Origin: Chthonomonadaceae bacterium
GTDB taxonomy: Bacteria > Armatimonadota > Chthonomonadetes > Chthonomonadales > Chthonomonadaceae
Length of the DNA: 44,436 nt
Assembly (NCBI GenBank): GCA_025352825.1
Contig: JANXSG010000208.1
Span: 1-44,436, forward strand
Reading direction: 5' to 3'
Shown here: positions 4,489 to 34,674 of the stretch, piece after piece
Position numbering within the stretch: position 1 is the stretch's first letter
Layout of the letters: each line of letters starts with the position of its first letter
Notes under the pieces: generated by a model
The model's database searches: none
What the model was told of the DNA's origin: nothing
The model's input: the letters and a program-made list of their open reading frames with translations, nothing else
Program-made: the position numbers and the translations under genes

Positions 4489-5535
4489 ATGGCGGATAAA
4501 TTGATACTCGGTGTGGATATTGGCGGGACAAAATCGGCAGTGGCGCTTGGGAATCGAGAAGGAGAAATTATTGATCGTCGGAGTGAACTGACTCTTCCCC
4601 TAGAGCGATCTCCACAGGAGGCGCTAAACAGCCTCACAAAAATTGCGAAGGAGATGTTGAAGGAAAATAAGATCGAATTCGATCAGCTTGAGGGAGTGGG
4701 AGTATCCTGTGGAGGACCGCTTGATACAAAAACAGGGACAATTTTTGCGCCGCCAAATCTGCCTGGATGGGTGGCTGTTCCAGTAAAACAGATCCTTGAA
4801 GAGAGTTTTAAGATTCCTGTTATTGTGGAGAACGATGCGAATGCAACAGCGCTTGCAGAATGGATATTCGGTGCAGGCAGGGGCGCTCGCAACGTCGTTT
4901 TTCTTACGATGGGTACGGGAATTGGCGGGGGATTAATCCTGGATGGGAAACTCTACCGGGGAACGAACGATCTTGCCGGTGAGATGGGACATCAGACACT
5001 CCTTATGAACGGCCCTCTCTGCGGGTGCGGTAAACGCGGGTGCCTGGAAGCGCTGGCATCTGGGCCAGCCATTGCTCGGCTTGCGCGCGAATCGATGATG
5101 TACGGCCGGCATAAGCGCGTAGTTGTCCTGGCTGGCGGAAATCCAGAGGATATTACAGCCAAACATGTGGTAGATGCTGCGAAAGAGGGAGACCATTTCG
5201 CCATCCAAATTTTGGAAGAAGCCGGCACGTATATGGGGCTTGGCATCGCGAATCTGATTCAGATTTTGAATCCCGAAATAGTTATTATTGGAACCATCGC
5301 AGTGCATGCTGGCGATCTGGTGATGAACCCGATTCGATCAGCGGTGGAGGAGTTTGCATGGAAACGCAGCCTGGAAGTATGCTCAATTGTACCTGCTGAA
5401 CTTGGTGATCGCAGTCAGGATTTAGCAGCTATTGCGCTAGTAATTGAAGCCACGAACCCTGGCCACAAATTCACCTCATCTCCTGTCCCCCTCTTCCAAG
5501 TGAGGAGCGAACACTTGGAAGAGGGGTTTTGTTGA
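4489..5535 (+). CDS. ROK-family sugar kinase (glucokinase-like)
   Basis: Phosphorylates a hexose with ATP in the cytoplasm; glucose is likely but not certain, since ROK also includes N-acetylmannosamine and fructose kinases. DIGGTK at 10-15 is the phosphate-binding loop, END at 114-116 holds the catalytic Asp116, and GTGIGGG (142-148) binds ATP. The zinc site GH (167-168) plus CGCGKRGC (178-185) is complete. No N-terminal helix-turn-helix is present, so this is a kinase and not a repressor. At 348 residues it is longer than the usual 300-320: the last 25 or so residues are translated from a palindromic repeat that also forms a terminator. It converges with the fusion gene, leaving 5 bases between the stop codons. 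Confidence 0.88.
   Translation: MADKLILGVDIGGTKSAVALGNREGEIIDRRSELTLPLERSPQEALNSLTKIAKEMLKENKIEFDQLEGVGVSCGGPLDTKTGTIFAPPNLPGWVAVPVKQILEESFKIPVIVENDANATALAEWIFGAGRGARNVVFLTMGTGIGGGLILDGKLYRGTNDLAGEMGHQTLLMNGPLCGCGKRGCLEALASGPAIARLARESMMYGRHKRVVVLAGGNPEDITAKHVVDAAKEGDHFAIQILEEAGTYMGLGIANLIQILNPEIVIIGTIAVHAGDLVMNPIRSAVEEFAWKRSLEVCSIVPAELGDRSQDLAAIALVIEATNPGHKFTSSPVPLFQVRSEHLEEGFC
5488..5530 (+). terminator. Repeat-derived hairpin terminator overlapping the ROK 3' end
   Basis: A perfect 15-bp stem (CCCCTCTTCCAAGTG at 5488-5502, complement at 5512-5526) with a 9-base loop (AGGAGCGAA) is followed by TTTT (5527-5530). It lies inside the last codons of the ROK gene, whose stop is at 5533-5535. The arms and loop match the intergenic repeat family, so a mobile palindrome appears to have become a terminator. 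Confidence 0.7.
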
Positions 5536-21523: not shown

Positions 21524-22246
21524 TCATTGCGATTGGCGCAATATTCGCTCCATTTTCAGGGCTTTTGGGAATAAAATATGATTTTCTTTAAATAGATGAA
21601 GGTGCAGATCAATTTCTAGTTCAGACAGACCCTGAAGCAAAACTTTATAAGTGCTGCACACATCGCAGGGAACAGCATAGTTATTGGTTATGGCACGAAT
21701 CGAGCGTAGAGCATCCGCCAGTTTCTCATGTTCTGCTTCAAGCCGATCTATATGTTTATCGAGAAAATCAACACATGGCGCGAGCGGGACATGGTCTGCA
21801 TTTTCGATCTGTACGCAGAGTGGAAAAACTATGTACTCTTCTTTGCCGATATGAACTTCAAGATCGAATTTGAATTTCTCAAAAATTGTTCTGATATTGT
21901 GCAGTTCCTTATGTTGTTCCCCGTGGACTCTGAGTACTTTATCCATCAGATAGTCTAGTGCTGGCAGTTCGCGGCGTATATATGCATGGTGAGTTGCTGT
22001 CAGATGGTCTATGAGAGCTACTAGAGACATGTTTGCCAAAGCAGATTCTTCAGATATTTCGTTCTGCCGATCCAACTCCTCTAAATCGTGAGTCACCATT
22101 TCCAGGTCACACCCACACAGTAGGCAGGCATCTTTCAATGATATGCTTCTGTTGCAGTAGTAGTCAATTTGGAGGCGTTCAAAAATAACGGAACGAATTA
22201 ATCGTTCTTCTACCAGTACGCCTATAGGTGTGTTGACATATCCCAT
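21524..22246 (-). CDS. ric: Iron-sulfur cluster repair di-iron protein (RIC/ScdA/YtfE family)
   Basis: Repairs iron-sulfur clusters damaged by nitric oxide or peroxide by way of a di-iron centre. The N-terminal ScdA_N-like part (about 1-60: FERLQIDYYCNRSISLKDAC) precedes a hemerythrin-like four-helix bundle with spaced His and Glu ligands: LIDHLTATHHAYI, HGEQHKELHNI, LEVHIGKEEYIVFP, LEAEHEKLADAL and LHLHLFKENHILFPKA. The usual CxG of ScdA_N is replaced by CNR. Two starts are possible; the second Met (22246) is preferred because GAGGG lies 6 bases before it, whereas the first Met (22252) overlaps that site. It is upstream of xfp-ackA, fitting a low-oxygen or NO stress block. Confidence 0.9.
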   Translation of the reverse strand: MGYVNTPIGVLVEERLIRSVIFERLQIDYYCNRSISLKDACLLCGCDLEMVTHDLEELDRQNEISEESALANMSLVALIDHLTATHHAYIRRELPALDYLMDKVLRVHGEQHKELHNIRTIFEKFKFDLEVHIGKEEYIVFPLCVQIENADHVPLAPCVDFLDKHIDRLEAEHEKLADALRSIRAITNNYAVPCDVCSTYKVLLQGLSELEIDLHLHLFKENHILFPKALKMERILRQSQ

Positions 22247-22382
22247 AAACATCCCTCATATTTCGACAGCAGATAATAAATTATGGAGTTCGATTGCTTT
22301 TATGTCATCCGCAGAACGACGGATTATTAATTTATTAATTAGGCAGGTAGTTGCTACAGTTGAGAGAATACTCATATTTAAG

Positions 22383-22564
22383 CCCTCATCCCCCGACCCC
22401 CTCTCCCAAAAACAGGAGAGGGGGAGCATTAAATCGTTGGATTCCTATCTCTCATTTCGTGAGCTATGCGCTTACAGTAAGATCAAAACCCTATATAATT
22501 TTGAAAAACCAATGCCATAGTCACCCCCTCTCCTGTTTTTGGGAGAGGGGGAAGGGGGTGAGGG
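22383..22564. repeat. Two palindromic repeats in inverted orientation
   Basis: Units at about 22383-22424 and 22521-22564 are near reverse complements: one carries CTCTCCCAAAAACAGGAGAG, the other its reverse form, with GGGGTGAGGG tails at the outer ends. The second has a longer homologous flank (GAAAAACCAATGCCATAGTC) shared with 34143-34175 on the other strand. They fill the divergent gap between ric and the histidine kinase; the remaining sequence 22247-22382 has no gene. Confidence 0.85.
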
Positions 22565-22719: not shown

Positions 22720-24375
22720 TTGGAAGCTAAGAACTTTAATTCTCCAAATTCTGCATCACATGATTTTCTTCAAAATTGCAGGATGACCTTACCCCTCCGT
22801 GTATTTTTGGAAAGTTCACATGAGGCTGTCTATGTCTGCTCTACGGCTAAAATCGTGCTCTGCATGAACTTAGCGGCAGAACGACTTTTTGGTTATTCAT
22901 CAGATGAACTGGTTGGCCAAAATTTGGAAGTGCTTATTCCACAAGAGCTGATACAAGAGTCGAACGAAATTATGGATCGCATTCAGCTCGGTGAACACTG
23001 CGAGCCTTTTGAAACTGTTCGCCTCTCAAAAAATGGGTCTTATATTGATGTCTCGGTCTCAGTGTTGCCTATAAACAACGAAGGGGATTCTGATTTAAAC
23101 TTCATGGTTATCGCGAGGAATAGAACGTCCCATCGAATTTCCAATCCTGAAAAACATCTCAACTTGAATGAAGAAAATCGATCTGTTGTGCTGGAAACGG
23201 TTCGGCGGGTGGCAATGGATATTCTGCTGAGTCGCTCTGGCATCGAATCTTTAGGCAAGATCGCAGAAGCAGCACGTACTCTTTCAGGGGCACAGTATGC
23301 AGCGCTTGGCGTAGCAAGGCAGGACGGATTAGGGCTTCAGGACTTTTTTACCATAGGCATCTCGGAAGAACAGGAAAAGATTATCGGCTCAGCGCCGAAA
23401 GGATTAGGTATTCTGGGGCTGCTGCTGCATCGAACAGAGCCATTGAGAATTGATATCCTGGCTAACCACCCGGCTTCGGTGGGATTTCCCGCTCATCACC
23501 CCCCGATGCAAAGTTTTCTGGGTGTACCTATAAAACGTGGGAAAGCAATACTTGGGAGCTTGTATCTCTCAAACAAAGAAGGTGGCGGCGCCTTTACTCC
23601 CGCAGATGAAACTGCAGTCCAAAGCCTCAGTGAATATGCCGCAGTTTCTATCTATTACATGCAGATGATGCAGCGTCAGAGAGCGCTGGCAAGCAGTCTC
23701 ATCACTTCTCAGGAAGAAGAGCGACGATCTGTGGCATACGATTTACACGATGGCCTGACACAGTTTGTGATGGCTTCACATGCACATCTAGAAGCTTTTC
23801 AATCAGCCCGCACCCTGGGTAAGGCAGAACGTGCTGAGCGTGAACTGGAACTAGGGTTGCAATATATTAAGGAGGCTGTCGTAGAATCGCGCCGACTTAT
23901 TAACGGACTGCGTTCCTTGGCGCTCGATGATCTTGGTCTCACTGGTGCCCTTGATCAGCTCATTTCAGAAGAGAAAGCGCGTTCAGGATGGAACTCTGCA
24001 GAATTTCAGCATAATATTGAAGGTCGCAGATTTGATAAGTCGCTGGAGACCACTGTCTATCGCATTGCACAGGAAGCGCTGACGAATGCTCACAAACACT
24101 CAAAGACAGATAGAGTGCAAGTGATAATCTGGGCAGAATCCGCTGACAAAGATGAAGAGGAGCGGCTTAGACTCGAAGTGAGAGACTGGGGAATCGGATT
24201 TGATCTGGATAAGCAGGCAGTAGCAGTCTCCGGAGTCGGTCTGCAGGGCATGGCTGAAAGAGTCAGAATTATGAGTGGCAGCTATCAATTTGAAAGTGTA
24301 CCGGGAGCAGGGACGCTAATTCGAGCTATTTTCCCAGTACTCCAGCAGCCTCATCATTCAGATCAGGGAGAATAA
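22720..24375 (+). CDS. PAS-GAF sensor histidine kinase, NarL/DevS-like (HisKA_3)
   Basis: A cytoplasmic sensor kinase. PAS domain about 25-135 (NLAAERLFGYSSDELVGQNL), GAF domain about 170-320 (AARTLSGAQYAALGVARQDG, FLGVPI), then a HisKA_3 dimerisation domain with the phospho-acceptor His343 in DLHDGLTQ, and a HATPase domain to about 545 (AQEALTNAHKHS N box, VRDWGIGFD G1, GVGLQGMAERV G2). There is no membrane segment, so the signal is internal, such as redox, gas or a small ligand. The assigned start is TTG at 22720 with a poor ribosome site; ATG 22783 (residue 22) is an alternative that keeps the PAS domain. It overlaps the regulator gene by one base (TAATG). Confidence 0.9.
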   Translation: MEAKNFNSPNSASHDFLQNCRMTLPLRVFLESSHEAVYVCSTAKIVLCMNLAAERLFGYSSDELVGQNLEVLIPQELIQESNEIMDRIQLGEHCEPFETVRLSKNGSYIDVSVSVLPINNEGDSDLNFMVIARNRTSHRISNPEKHLNLNEENRSVVLETVRRVAMDILLSRSGIESLGKIAEAARTLSGAQYAALGVARQDGLGLQDFFTIGISEEQEKIIGSAPKGLGILGLLLHRTEPLRIDILANHPASVGFPAHHPPMQSFLGVPIKRGKAILGSLYLSNKEGGGAFTPADETAVQSLSEYAAVSIYYMQMMQRQRALASSLITSQEEERRSVAYDLHDGLTQFVMASHAHLEAFQSARTLGKAERAERELELGLQYIKEAVVESRRLINGLRSLALDDLGLTGALDQLISEEKARSGWNSAEFQHNIEGRRFDKSLETTVYRIAQEALTNAHKHSKTDRVQVIIWAESADKDEEERLRLEVRDWGIGFDLDKQAVAVSGVGLQGMAERVRIMSGSYQFESVPGAGTLIRAIFPVLQQPHHSDQGE

Positions 24376-25064
24376 TGAATCAAAATTCAGAGCAAGTCGA
24401 AATACCCAGAGATATCTCTATTATGCTGGTGGATGACCACGCAATCTGGCGTGGTGGAGTTCGCAGTATGCTCGAAGACAGCGAGTTCAAAGTGGTGGGG
24501 GAGGCCTCTTCTGGCGTGGAAGCCGTGGTAGTGGCGAAGGAAGTGCAGCCAGAAGTGATTCTACTGGATATTCGCATGGCTGGTGGAGACGGTCTGGATG
24601 CCTTGCAGGCATTGAAAAAAGAGCTTCCAAAAACTTCTGTTGTTATGTTAACCACATACGATAACCCAACCTTTATGGCGAGAGCTGTAGTGGGGGGGGC
24701 GGCAGGCTATCTGCTTAAAGGAATTGAGCAGCAGGAGCTGCTGCAAGCGCTTCGAGCTGTGGCAGGAGGCGAACTTCTGCTGAATAAAAGTGATCTTCTA
24801 CGCTCGCTGCGAGGCATTAGCGAACATGAAACCCTCGCTCAAGAGCTTATCAAACCGCTCTCAGACCGCGAAATAGAGGTGTTAAAACTGGTTGCCACCG
24901 GTCTTAATAATCGGGATATCGGCTCCCTGCTTTTTGTAGCAGAGTGCACTGTGAAAACCCATGTGGAACACATAATCAATAAGCTTGGTGTTTCAGATAG
25001 AGTGCAGGCTGCCGTTTGGGCAGCTCGATGTGGTTTGGCAGATTCTCCCCCCCTCTCCGATTAA
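24375..25064 (+). CDS. NarL/FixJ-family response regulator
   Basis: Partner of the preceding kinase. The receiver domain (about 14-130) has the acidic pair D20-D21, phospho-acceptor D65 (ILLDIRM), T93/T94 and K115 (GYLLKG). A LuxR-type helix-turn-helix follows (about 160-222: LSDREIEVLKLVATGLNNRD, then TVKTHVEHIINKLGVSDRVQ). Full length at 229 residues. Target genes are unknown; the neighbouring xfp-ackA, ric, alcohol dehydrogenase and cyd genes are natural candidates, by analogy with DevR and NarL-type oxygen or redox regulators, but I see no shared operator. Confidence 0.94.
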   Translation: MNQNSEQVEIPRDISIMLVDDHAIWRGGVRSMLEDSEFKVVGEASSGVEAVVVAKEVQPEVILLDIRMAGGDGLDALQALKKELPKTSVVMLTTYDNPTFMARAVVGGAAGYLLKGIEQQELLQALRAVAGGELLLNKSDLLRSLRGISEHETLAQELIKPLSDREIEVLKLVATGLNNRDIGSLLFVAECTVKTHVEHIINKLGVSDRVQAAVWAARCGLADSPPLSD

Positions 25065-25092
25065 TTCTAGCGATCGTGCTCCGATTTACTGA

Positions 25093-25308
25093 TCAAGATG
25101 CTAGAGGGAGTGTCGTATCCTGCTGTTGAAGTAAATAGTCGCAAATCTCAGCTTGGATCTCATGAATTCGATGATGATAACTCTCTGATACCAGTGTGAT
25201 CAGTCCTGGCTCTGTATTCTCCAGATGCAGCTGCATAGCCACCAACATATTTTTGAAACTTGATAACTGGTTCAGAGCTATTTGCATCTGATCTTTATTT
25301 GCAATCAT
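25093..25308 (-). CDS. Small helical protein of unknown function
   Basis: A 71-residue, mostly helical protein (MIANKDQMQIALNQLSSF and on; the middle contains RIHEIQAEICDYL). The site GGAAGTGAGG lies just before the ATG, which argues that it is real. It converges with the regulator gene, with 28 bases between. The overall form recalls short antitoxin-like or helix-turn-helix companion proteins, but no DNA-binding motif can be seen. Confidence 0.55.
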   Translation of the reverse strand: MIANKDQMQIALNQLSSFKNMLVAMQLHLENTEPGLITLVSESYHHRIHEIQAEICDYLLQQQDTTLPLAS

Positions 25309-25541
25309 AGCCTCACTTCCAATACTCCTTTTGGTACTTTTGTCACCTTATCATGATCAAATCCAACCGTCCTTACGAAAACTGGCAGAGCCATATATAA
25401 TCTCCTGAGTATGAATTAGATTCATAGGATGTGTAGACAGTGACCAATTCATAGAACTTTCAGAGTGCCTTCATACATTTCCAGTGAATCAAATTTGTTC
25501 GGACGAAAACAAACTATCACGTATATTATTATTATAACATA

Positions 25542-25700
25542 ATGGAATGCATGAGTGCTGAACCAGTTGATTCTAGAATTCTGCCTGAATTGTATGCGCT
25601 GACTTATGTCCCATATCACGATACATTAAATTGCATTTACAATCTGCTTCCACCATCTCCAATTAGTCTGCTTCGTCACAATCCGCCGATCTGCGGATGA
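25542..25700 (+). CDS. Possible 52-residue ORF in the region upstream of the alcohol dehydrogenase
   Basis: The 454-bp gap 25309-25762 is otherwise AT-rich and shows no RNA gene. One ORF from ATG 25542 (or ATG 25551, with GGA six bases upstream) to TGA 25700 encodes a Leu/Pro-rich peptide (SRILPELYALTYVPYHDTL in the middle). No family is recognised and it may be chance. Confidence 0.2.
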   Translation: MECMSAEPVDSRILPELYALTYVPYHDTLNCIYNLLPPSPISLLRHNPPICG

Positions 25701-25723
25701 CTTCTTTGCTCTTAAGCATCTAT

Positions 25724-25764
25724 AATCCTCCACGATTGACATAATCTCGTGGAGGATTTAATAT
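25724..25764 (+). promoter_or_regulatory. Promoter, 12-bp dyad and ribosome site superimposed at the alcohol dehydrogenase start
   Basis: A perfect dyad AATCCTCCACGA (25724-25735) / TCGTGGAGGATT (25747-25758) encloses 11 bases. The enclosed bases begin with TTGACA (25736-25741); 17 bases later stands TAATAT (25759-25764), a near-consensus sigma-70 promoter. The right dyad arm also holds the ribosome site GGAGG (25751-25755) for ATG 25763, which itself overlaps the -10 box. The dyad can therefore be an operator centred near -30, or an RNA hairpin hiding the ribosome site, depending on where transcription starts. Confidence 0.65.
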
Positions 25765-26827
25765 GTCTAAAATGCGGGCGAATGTTTACTTTGGAGTGAA
25801 CGACTTCCGAATTCAGGAAGTTGAGAAACCTCGTGCAGGCGTTGGCGAAGCTGTCATACGTATCACTCTGACTACAATATGCGGTACTGATCTCCATATC
25901 GTTCGAGGGGAATACCCTGTCAAGCCGGGGCTCATCATAGGTCACGAACCAGTAGGGGTAATCGAGGAACTTGGCCTCGGGGTAACTGGCTACGAAGTGG
26001 GAGAAAGAGTTCTGGTAGGCGCCATTACTCCTTGCGGGCAGTGTTATGCTTGTCTCTCTGGGCAGCTTTCGCAATGTGGGCATGGTGATAGTTATGAAGC
26101 AATAGGTGGCTGGAGATTTGGAAATACTATCAATGGCGCCCAAGCAGACTACCTCCTTGTTCCCAATGCGCAGGCAAACCTCGCTAAAATTCCCAATGAT
26201 GTGACGGATGAGCAGGTTTTACTGCTCGCGGATATAGCTTCTACAGGTTTCAGCGGTGCAGAGTCTGGGCATGTACGTATGGGAGATTCGGTGGCCGTGT
26301 TTGCCCAAGGGCCGATTGGGCTTTGTGCAACTGCTGGCGCAAGGCTGATGGGCGCTTCTCTGATTATTGGAGTGGATGGCGACGACAATCGCCTCGCAAT
26401 GTCCAGTAAGATGGGAGCCGATGTTGTGCTGGACTATCGAACTCAGGATGTAGTAGCTGAAATTAAAAAACTTACGAATGGGGGCGCAGATGTCAGCATC
26501 GAAGCGCTTGGGACACAGCAGACTTTTGAAAATGCGCTGCGCTGCCTTCGCCCTGGTGGAATACTCTCAAGCCTCGGTGTGTATTCAGGTAAGCTGCAGG
26601 TTCCGTACGATGCGTTTGCTGCAGGATTAGGCGATATCAAGATAGTCACGACGCTTTGCCCTGGCGGGAAAGAGCGAATGCGCCGCCTGATTGAAACTGT
26701 CAAACACGGCAGAGTCGACCTGACTCACCTCATCACACACTCCTTTTCACTAGATAAGATTGGCGAAGCATATGCCCTATTTGGAGAGCGGCGGGATGGG
26801 GTCATCAAAGTTGCGATTAGGCCATAG
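25763..26827 (+). CDS. Zinc-dependent alcohol dehydrogenase (medium-chain)
   Basis: An NAD(P)-linked oxidoreductase of 354 residues. Catalytic zinc ligands are C40 and H61-E62 (GHE) plus D157 (LLLADIASTGF); a structural zinc is bound by C91, C94, C97 and C105. The nucleotide loop is GPIGLC at 183-188. The GGWRFGNTINGAQADY and DIASTGFSGAE segments resemble the bacterial secondary-alcohol (isopropanol) dehydrogenase branch, so secondary alcohols or ketones are possible substrates. Two starts compete: ATG 25763 has a ribosome site; ATG 25772 (MRANVYFGVND) matches the usual family start and could be leaderless. cydA follows after 31 bases, so co-transcription is likely. Confidence 0.9.
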   Translation: MSKMRANVYFGVNDFRIQEVEKPRAGVGEAVIRITLTTICGTDLHIVRGEYPVKPGLIIGHEPVGVIEELGLGVTGYEVGERVLVGAITPCGQCYACLSGQLSQCGHGDSYEAIGGWRFGNTINGAQADYLLVPNAQANLAKIPNDVTDEQVLLLADIASTGFSGAESGHVRMGDSVAVFAQGPIGLCATAGARLMGASLIIGVDGDDNRLAMSSKMGADVVLDYRTQDVVAEIKKLTNGGADVSIEALGTQQTFENALRCLRPGGILSSLGVYSGKLQVPYDAFAAGLGDIKIVTTLCPGGKERMRRLIETVKHGRVDLTHLITHSFSLDKIGEAYALFGERRDGVIKVAIRP

Positions 26828-26858: not shown

Positions 26859-28181
26859 ATGGATGCGTTGGCCTGGAATAGAATCCAGTTTGGGTTTACA
26901 ATTACATATCACTATCTATTCCCACAACTTACCATGGGGCTCGCTTTGATGATCGTTATCTTCAAAGCTCTTGGCATCAAGAAAAATGATGAACGGTATC
27001 ATGAATCTGCGCGATTCTGGGCGAAAATTTTCGGTATCAACTTTGCTGTCGGCGTGGTTACTGGAATCCCTATGGAGTTTCAGTTCGGGACAAACTGGGC
27101 TAGATTTTCCCATTTTTCTGGAGGTGTCATCGGAACGACACTCGCCTTGGAGGGGCTGTTCGCATTCTTCGCAGAATCTGCCTTTTTGGGGCTATTCCTG
27201 TATGGCGAGAATAGACTCAGCCCCAGAGGGCATATGTTCGCAGCTGTGATGGTGTTTCTAGGCTCATGGCTGTCGGGCTATTTCATAATTGCAACCAATG
27301 CATTCATGCAGCATCCCGTTGGTTACAATATAGGAGCAGACGGAAATCTGCATCTGGCAAGTTTTTGGAGATATCTGCTTAATCCCTGGGCAATCTGGCA
27401 ATATGCTCATAATATGACTGCTTCAGTGGTGACCAGTTCCTTCGTTGTGTGCGCTGTGGGAGCCTACTACACGCTGATGGATCGGCACGCAAGGCAGGGG
27501 CGCGTGTTTCTAAGAGTGGGAATAACCACAGGACTGCTCGCTTCGATATTTATTCTCTTCCCTACTGGAGATCATAGTGGGAAAATGGTCGCTAAATATC
27601 AGCGAGGTGCTCTGGCAGCCATGGAGGGTAAGTTTAAGAGTGGCGACAGCGCCGAGATGGCAATTATCGGTCAGCCTGATACTGTTAATCATAGACTCGA
27701 AAATCAAATCGTTGTCCCGGGAGTTCTCAGCTTCCTGGCTTACGGCACCTTTGGCTCCAAAGTTACTGGCCTCGATGATATTCCAAAAGATCAGCGGCCA
27801 GACAATGTAGAACTGCTCTATTATGCCTATCATGTGATGGTGGGGCTGGGGACACTCTTCATCTTAACGATGGGAACTGCCGCGTTCCTGCTAAAAAGAG
27901 GAATGCTCTTTCACTCCCGACCGATGCTATGGGTTCTAATGATGGCTTTCCCATTTCCCTATATTGCCACGACAGCAGGCTGGATGACTGCAGAAATAGG
28001 CCGGCAGCCCTGGCTGATTTACGGACTGCAGAGAACTATACACGGAACCTCGCCACTCGTCAGCGGAGGAAACGTAGCATTTACCACCATCGGTTTTACT
28101 GGCCTGTATACGCTGGTTGGAATACTGTTTCTGTTTCTGGTAATGCAAGAAATTGCACATGGGCCAGTATCAGTACCTTAG
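26859..28181 (+). CDS. cydA: Cytochrome bd ubiquinol oxidase subunit I
   Basis: Heme-bearing subunit of the high-affinity terminal oxidase (inner membrane). It has 440 residues and about nine membrane spans. H18 (ITYHYLF) corresponds to the high-spin heme ligand; H184 (WQYAHNM) corresponds to a b558 ligand. GWMTAEIGRQPW is the conserved quinol-site motif. The Q loop is short, as in the cyanide-insensitive or Bacillus-like subfamily. AAAGGA precedes the ATG. A near-perfect dyad (AACTTACGTTCA/TGAACGCAAGTT) starts 6 bases after the stop. The partner cydB is not adjacent but 386 bases further on. Confidence 0.95.
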   Translation: MDALAWNRIQFGFTITYHYLFPQLTMGLALMIVIFKALGIKKNDERYHESARFWAKIFGINFAVGVVTGIPMEFQFGTNWARFSHFSGGVIGTTLALEGLFAFFAESAFLGLFLYGENRLSPRGHMFAAVMVFLGSWLSGYFIIATNAFMQHPVGYNIGADGNLHLASFWRYLLNPWAIWQYAHNMTASVVTSSFVVCAVGAYYTLMDRHARQGRVFLRVGITTGLLASIFILFPTGDHSGKMVAKYQRGALAAMEGKFKSGDSAEMAIIGQPDTVNHRLENQIVVPGVLSFLAYGTFGSKVTGLDDIPKDQRPDNVELLYYAYHVMVGLGTLFILTMGTAAFLLKRGMLFHSRPMLWVLMMAFPFPYIATTAGWMTAEIGRQPWLIYGLQRTIHGTSPLVSGGNVAFTTIGFTGLYTLVGILFLFLVMQEIAHGPVSVP

Positions 28182-28279
28182 AAGTTAACTTACGTTCAGA
28201 ATGAACGCAAGTTGTGTTTGCGCCAGGGTTGAAGGGATTGTGAAAGTAATCGAAATGCAGATATAATCGCTTAAATACA

Positions 28280-28403
28280 CCTCACATCAACCCCACTCCC
28301 GGTAACTCGCAAGCTCGTTGGGAGAGGGGCCAATGCATGGTTTAGTCACCCCCTCTCTCTTGCGAGGAACGAGCAATATGGGAGAGGGGGCTGGGGGTGA
28401 GGG
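28280..28403. repeat. Two palindromic repeats between cydA and cydB
   Basis: Units at about 28280-28331 and 28346-28403, of the CTCGTTCCTCG-loop class (TTGCGAGGAACGAGCAATA in the second). They separate two genes that are normally adjacent. The rest of the 386-bp gap holds a CTGGC-TTC-GCCAG hairpin near 28451-28463 and the cydB ribosome site, but no gene. Confidence 0.83.
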
Positions 28404-28567
28404 TTTGAAGATGCCGTTGGGAGTGTTGCTTTTAACGAAATATCTCTTTTGGTTCTGGCTTCGCCAGTTTCAGGTGTAGAGGATTCCAACGAGAGTTTTG
28501 GCAGAAATTAATAACTCCCCGGTAGCGCCGTGACACCGCCGGCAGATGGTTATAAGGAGAAAGAAAT

Positions 28568-29614
28568 TTGGCCACAGTTTGGTTTGTTTTCATATCGCTG
28601 ATGCTGGCAGCTTATGTCGTGCTGGACGGGTTCGATTTTGGAGCCGGTATCATCCACCTCATCGTAGCGAACACTGACGAGGAACGCCGCACGGTACTGC
28701 AGGCAATCGGGCCATTGTGGGATGGAAATGAGGTATGGCTTTTGTCTGCAGGTGGAGCACTCTTTTTTGCCTTCCCAAAAGTATATGCTTCTGGATTCAG
28801 CGGATTTTACATGCCCTTGATGATCGTATTATGGCTGCTAATTCTGCGCGGGCTCTCCATCGAGTTTCGCTCAAAACTGCCCAATACACTATGGCGCAGC
28901 TTTTGGGATGGACTGTTTTTCCTTTCGTCCACCTTGCTCGCGATTGTTCTGGGAGCTGCGCTCGGAAATGTCATCCGCGGAGTACCGCTGGACGCATCGG
29001 GGTATTTTTTGGCCCCTCTGTTTACTAACTTCAACGTAGGAGTGCTTCCCGGGGTTCTGGACTGGTACACCGTTCTTGTAGGCGTGTTTACACTTGTGGT
29101 TCTCGCGGGGCATGGAGCGCTCTTTCTCACATGGAAAACGACAGGAGCGGTACAACAAAGAAGTAAAAATCTGAGTAAAAAGTTATGGGCGATTATCGTG
29201 GTGCTCATGGCGGTCACTACCGTGGGGACATCGGCAACCCAGCCACTTTTTTACCCTCAGATGATAGCAAGACCATGGATTCTGATCTTGGTTCTCGCCG
29301 TTCTGGGAAGTCTGGTATCTCTCTTCATAAATCTCAAGAACGGAAAGGAACTGCCAGCGTTTCTCTCTTCGGTGGCATACATTGCAGGAATTCTAGCCGC
29401 TACAGCCGCTGCTGCCTATCCCAATCTGCTTGCATCTACTATCAACCCTGCCTTCAGTCTGAATGTTTCGAATGCTTCCACAGATTCGGCAGGCTTGGCA
29501 GGAGCAATGATCTGGTGGGTGCCAGGAATTTTGACAGCAATTGGATATTTTGTCTATCTATTCCGATCATTTCGCGGGAAAGTTGATATGGAAGCCGAAG
29601 GATATGGTCACTAA
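28568..29614 (+). CDS. cydB: Cytochrome bd ubiquinol oxidase subunit II
   Basis: Second subunit of the bd oxidase, a membrane protein of 348 residues with about eight spans. The N-terminal YVVLDGFDFGAGI motif and GPLWDGNEVWLL are diagnostic. The start is TTG at 28568, fixed by AAGGAG 9 bases upstream and by homology of the N-terminus. No cydX-like or cydDC gene is seen. It ends 12 bases from the convergent HEAT-like gene. Confidence 0.95.
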   Translation: MATVWFVFISLMLAAYVVLDGFDFGAGIIHLIVANTDEERRTVLQAIGPLWDGNEVWLLSAGGALFFAFPKVYASGFSGFYMPLMIVLWLLILRGLSIEFRSKLPNTLWRSFWDGLFFLSSTLLAIVLGAALGNVIRGVPLDASGYFLAPLFTNFNVGVLPGVLDWYTVLVGVFTLVVLAGHGALFLTWKTTGAVQQRSKNLSKKLWAIIVVLMAVTTVGTSATQPLFYPQMIARPWILILVLAVLGSLVSLFINLKNGKELPAFLSSVAYIAGILAATAAAAYPNLLASTINPAFSLNVSNASTDSAGLAGAMIWWVPGILTAIGYFVYLFRSFRGKVDMEAEGYGH

Positions 29615-34105: not shown

Positions 34106-34674
34106 CCCTCACCCCCCATCCCCCTCTCCCAAAAACAGGAGAGGGGGTGACTATGGCATCAGTTTTTCAATATTGAGCCTCTTGCAAAAGTCTGATTAAA
34201 CCTTTTTTTGCCTAACCCCCTAGCCCCCGTCCCTGATTCCCTCGTACCTCGAAGGGAAGGGGGAATCTTTGGCATTGATTCTCCTCCTTCCCTAGCGCAA
34301 ACTGCTTTATCGCTTGCGTGTGCAGGGAGGGGGGCTGGGGGGCTGGGTCAAAAGTCTCTTTCGGACTGTAAATGGGCTAAAAGTCGCTATTTTTCAATGG
34401 CAGATCAGCGTCAAAAAAATCTTCGTCGCTTGTATGGGCATTGCAGAGCGATTTTTTTTCAATCGAAAATATCAGATAGACTTTTGACCCGCCCTCCTGG
34501 GGGGGTAGGCAGAAGAAGTCTCAATTCTGTTGGATTCATGACTTTTGCAATTACCCATATTATATAAGATTTTGTTCTTAATATATATTCATATCCCACA
34601 AAACGAGAGACGGAAAGCCAACGTAATACAGCTCCCCCTCTCCTGTTTTTGGGAGAGGGGGTCGGGGGTGAGGG
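34106..34674. repeat. Palindromic repeats flanking the 34.2-34.55 kb element
   Basis: Units at 34106-34150 (CTCTCCCAAAAACAGGAGAG) and 34631-34674 (the reverse form) face each other across about 480 bp. Between them lie two related C/G-rich blocks, about 34212-34262 and 34290-34345 (CCTAGCCCCC ... GGGGGGCTGGG). The 823-bp gap 33878-34700 holds no gene I can support. Confidence 0.8.
34182..34550. mobile_element. MITE-like element with nested inverted repeats
   Basis: Outer inverted repeats TTGCAAAAGTC (34182-34192) and GACTTTTGCAA (34540-34550) bound 369 bp. Inner 13-bp inverted repeats GGGTCAAAAGTCT (34345-34357) and AGACTTTTGACCC (34478-34490) share the AAAAGTC core. No transposase frame is inside, and no clear target duplication is seen. 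This suits a non-autonomous element or a remnant of nested insertions. Confidence 0.5.

Follow-up and report, generated by a model that had tools for sequence, protein, structure and literature searches.

The window, i.e., the whole 44,436-nt stretch of DNA that was analyzed, encodes a 354-aa zinc-dependent alcohol dehydrogenase (ADH) of the MDR superfamily, followed after 31 nt by cydA and then by cydB, the genes for subunits I and II of the cytochrome bd oxidase (Table 1). Not far from these genes are those coding for a RIC/ScdA/YtfE-type di-iron Fe-S repair protein (positions 21524 to 22252, minus strand) and for a PAS-GAF histidine kinase and a LuxR-type response regulator (22720 to 25064, plus strand); together, the Fe-S repair protein, the two-component system, and ADH-cydAB possibly constitute an NO/low-oxygen response cluster. 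The ADH gene adjoined cydAB in none of the loci fetched from other genomes, and no literature on this gene pair in Acidobacteria was found. Feeding of cydAB by the ADH promoter, as suggested in the earlier note, is therefore plausible for the source genome, given the short gap, but not as a general arrangement. The gap between cydA and cydB (28182 to 28567, plus strand) contains a promoter match (28238 to 28267) whose -10 element is a perfect TATAAT; at 386 nt, it is unusually long, as in related loci of the family cydB begins ∼40 to 90 nt after cydA.

The 700-nt gap before the ADH gene harbors two small minus-strand open reading frames (25093 to 25394), the first of 29 aa and the second of 71 aa, which overlap in an ATGA. 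The 71-aa product, which begins MIANKDQMQIALNQL and presumably resembles the N terminus of HTH antitoxin-like proteins, had no match in Pfam and no second copy in the source genome. Inverted repeats of the form CCCCCTCTCC...GGAGAGGGGG, with the spacers CAAAAACA or TGTTTTTG, recur at 22397 to 22424, 22524 to 22551, 34120 to 34147, and 34634 to 34661, and a similar unit is found elsewhere in the genome (locus L114, 7330 to 7392); these probably represent a dispersed intergenic repeat family.

Table 1. Elements around the ADH start and the genes downstream (window coordinates)
Feature	Positions	Strand	Remarks
Promoter match ATGACT-N18-TATAAT	25697-25726	+	Consensus match only; predicted start ~25732-25734, within left arm
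Dyad, left arm	25724-25735	.	AATCCTCCACGA
Dyad, spacer/loop	25736-25746	.	TTGACATAATC, 11 nt; contains -35-like TTGACA
Promoter match TTGACA-N17-TAATAT	25736-25764	+	Consensus match only; predicted start ~25771
Dyad, right arm	25747-25758	.	TCGTGGAGGATT; contains Shine-Dalgarno
Shine-Dalgarno GGAGG	25751-25755	+	7 nt before ATG 25763; orthologue comparison
ADH gene	25763-26827	+	Start ATG 25763
cydA	26859-28181	+	Cytochrome bd oxidase subunit I
cydB	28568-29614	+	Cytochrome bd oxidase subunit II

Positions 25720 to 25774 read CTATAATCCTCCACGATTGACATAATCTCGTGGAGGATTTAATATGTCTAAAATG and contain a perfect dyad, with two fully complementary 12-bp arms. The earlier note placed these arms, and the GGAGG within the right one, correctly; the spacing of N15 that it gave is in error, the spacer being the 11-nt TTGACATAATC. 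The flanks of the arms show a weak mirrored likeness (79% over 24-nt arms, 7/12 over the outer 12 nt; shuffle p = 0.06). On the minus strand, the left-arm region (25712 to 25735) reads GGAGGATTATAGATG, a Shine-Dalgarno (SD) sequence and an ATG that opens a short open reading frame, so that a rough mirror symmetry extends past the perfect arms of the dyad. A terminator was considered and rejected, as the right arm is followed by TTTAAT, without a U tract.

In shuffled sequence, perfect dyads with arms of at least 12 bp and spacers of 3 to 20 nt arose in none of 20,000 shuffles of the local 90-nt region and in 3 of 3,000 shuffles of the 766-nt intergenic region; the window contains three of them, versus a mean of 0.1 in shuffled windows. 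Dyads of this size are common in the source genome, with 12 in a 260-kb sample (∼46 per Mb), some resembling terminators or repeats; what is notable is therefore the placement over the SD. Among the 1,416 SD-led candidate starts in the other loci fetched, none had a perfect arm of at least 10 bp over the SD. In the source genome, hairpins pairing CCTCC with a GGAGG before an ATG were represented only by the present dyad (on both strands) and two short-CCTCC matches; the control also gave two. A second dyad that appeared to cover an SD (5488 to 5526) was discarded, since the open reading frame behind it was judged spurious and probably corresponds to the end of a gene on the opposite strand.

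Within the genomes searched, the dyad is confined to this locus. With spacers of 5 to 20 nt, its exact sequence occurs once in the source genome, and a search allowing up to 3 mismatches at a spacer of 11 nt added one near-random match and nothing else. In a search of 291 Acidobacteriota genomes (the source genome included, 17 of its family), the perfect dyad was found in none of the other 290; versions with 1 or 2 mismatches were seen in 24 of them, not much above the reversed control. It is absent upstream of every orthologue examined, the nearest being 77 to 81% identical; the 241-nt leader region had no match in the family, and the upstream regions of the cydA genes of the family contain neither such a dyad nor an ADH gene. 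A dyad lacking in relatives is part of what the earlier note had named as speaking against its own proposal. With nothing conserved, evolution offers no evidence that the dyad has been under selection.

Between the GGAGG and ATG 25763 there are 7 nt, versus 16 nt for a second in-frame ATG at 25772, which the earlier note recognized and proposed as the beginning of a leaderless mRNA. An M-x-x-M-[RK]-A start, with an ATG at the equivalent of 25763, is found in 37 of 84 orthologues, 33 of which carry an SD-like motif before the first ATG, and this ATG is present in all three nearest orthologues. In some distant orthologues, from Myxococcus and Corallococcus, translation begins at the position of the second ATG, although here too an SD is present. 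The start codon favored by both the SD spacing and the orthologues is thus ATG 25763. In a sample of 137 long open reading frames of the source genome, SD-like motifs showed a strong enrichment where an SD would be expected, but the frequency of TANNNT at -12 did not exceed the background. A TANNNT motif at this distance (about -12) has been published as characteristic of leaderless genes in bacteria (PMC3160421). A leaderless gene would have its -10 element ∼12 nt before the true start and no SD; the ADH gene has the GGAGG 7 nt before ATG 25763. Taken together, the SD-led ATG, the orthologous starts, and the missing TANNNT excess make the leaderless reading unlikely.

Folding predictions indicate that an RNA with both arms forms a stable hairpin (-17.8 kcal/mol, z = -5.2), in which the dyad pairs the entire SD of ATG 25763 with a probability close to 1 at temperatures between 20 and 75°C. 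The modeled probability of an unpaired SD is at most 0.0003 at 37°C and at most 0.006 at 75°C, and the SD accessibility of 0.0001 is the lowest among the 51 orthologous starts examined (median, 0.48). A leader beginning at 25733 folds ordinarily (z = -1.1). The suggestion that transcription from upstream would hide the ribosome-binding site thus agrees with the predicted fold.

Two promoter matches are interleaved with the dyad. The one described previously, TTGACA (25736 to 25741)-N17-TAATAT (25759 to 25764), is indeed present, with its -10 element overlapping ATG 25763, and agrees with the consensus at 10 of 12 positions; TAATAT matches TATAAT at just 4 of 6. The other, ATGACT-N18-TATAAT, lies just upstream and was overlooked; it also scores 10 of 12, combining a perfect -10 element with a weak -35 element (ATGACT). 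As this TATAAT ends at 25726, a start 6 to 8 nt later falls inside the left arm. Across the window, matches of at least 10/12 show a small excess (13 versus 8.9 by chance). Upon shuffling of the upstream 118 nt, at least one such match appeared in 390 of 20,000 sequences and two in 3 of 20,000. No plus-strand promoter of at least 9/12 was predicted in 25065 to 25696, so that an RNA coming from farther upstream is hypothetical.

The preferred reading, to which we would assign a probability of about 0.4, is that the dyad acts as a translational lock on read-through RNA, such that only messages from the proximal promoter can be translated. A transcript that reads in from genes farther upstream, such as those of the histidine kinase and the response regulator, would contain both arms and would fold into the 12-bp hairpin, burying the SD of the ADH gene. 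Initiation at the TATAAT promoter would yield an RNA whose 5' end lies within the left arm and which is missing most of that arm; with its GGAGG free, this short-leader message would be translated starting at ATG 25763. Under this model, the ADH gene, and perhaps also the downstream cydAB, would rely on the ADH gene's own promoter for expression. We infer the use of the TATAAT promoter, read-through from upstream, and the translation block; the hairpin probably prevents the translation of read-through messages, a type of control that is already known.

The same dyad could be a DNA operator, with the 35-bp inverted repeat bound by a regulator, either dimeric or in the form of paired dimers, that blocks the TATAAT or the TTGACA promoter. 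This is possible, if rather unlikely. The symmetry is perfect and overlaps both promoter matches, its center (25741) lying at about +9 relative to the TATAAT promoter and about -30 relative to the TTGACA promoter, and the genes just upstream include one for a LuxR-type response regulator. However, without a second copy of the dyad in the genome there is no regulon, relatives lack the dyad, and the arm centers are 23 bp apart, i.e., two helical turns, which is unusual for one dimer; an operator for a single target could still be envisaged. Operators of the LacI/TetR type on sigma-70 promoters similarly place an inverted repeat over promoter elements and the predicted start, but in the present case the arms are 11 nt apart and no other genomic site exists.

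Alternatively, the dyad might have no selected function as a unit, being a local palindrome that template switching created or perfected and that took in the SD by accident; RNA starting downstream of the left arm would then be translated normally. The lack of conservation, the frequency of such dyads in this genome, and the weakly mirrored flanks, as an inverted duplication would leave, all fit this explanation, which nevertheless appears unlikely: dyads over an SD are rare, and a main message that carried such a lock would come at a cost. Because promoter use is only predicted and nothing is conserved, the operator and the accidental palindrome both remain serious rivals of the read-through lock.

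It is improbable that transcription of the ADH gene begins upstream of the dyad and that temperature, an RNA-binding protein, or a small RNA opens the hairpin. The complete sequestration of the SD would suit such riboregulation, but the region upstream lacks a predicted promoter, and the Rfam 15 covariance models produced no match at 25 to 26 kb or anywhere in the window. An RNA thermometer was rejected, as the stem is too stable and is predicted to stay closed even at 75°C. The switch of the earlier note, between a leadered, locked mRNA and a repressible, leaderless one that begins at 25771/25772, is very improbable: its locked half is supported by folding, and its leaderless half could draw on the predicted start adjoining ATG 25772 and on the Myxococcus and Corallococcus starts, but the latter have an SD, and the start codon evidence, the genome sample, the poor -10 element, and the unconserved dyad all argue against it. 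There is scarcely any chance that a single 70-bp element, with its two promoters interleaved with both arms, gives rise to three kinds of message from one gene, the first leadered and locked, the second with a short leader and an SD, and the third leaderless.

Fold-back inhibition is known from the IS10 and IS50 transposase genes, where RNA entering from outside covers the ribosome-binding site and only the element's own promoter yields protein. The likeness is in the outside RNA that folds over the ribosome-binding site; in contrast to those elements, the present dyad is single and local, and no transposable element was found at the ADH gene. A parallel is also provided by bacteriophage T4 gene e and I-TevI, whose late promoters are embedded in the DNA encoding the 5' strand of an SD-sequestering hairpin, so that only the short transcripts are well translated and the long ones are not (PMC3014915). 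As in that system, the SD hairpin would form in long transcripts and a promoter within its 5' strand would let the RNA escape. The present case differs in that it involves a bacterial metabolic gene with a sigma-70-like promoter match and is known from sequence alone. Retention of the structure in relatives would support a lock without strictly defining one; the gene e leaders are alike across related phages, unlike the dyad, which none of the relatives examined share. As a single, unconserved instance, the dyad is of small general importance, yet the hairpin is real and well placed, and a function of a known type, exerted in one genome, is plausible. If so, the ADH gene, and possibly the cytochrome bd genes, would be insulated from read-through, and the locus would represent a chromosomal bacterial example of the phage-type arrangement in which the position of the promoter relative to the hairpin decides whether a message can be translated.
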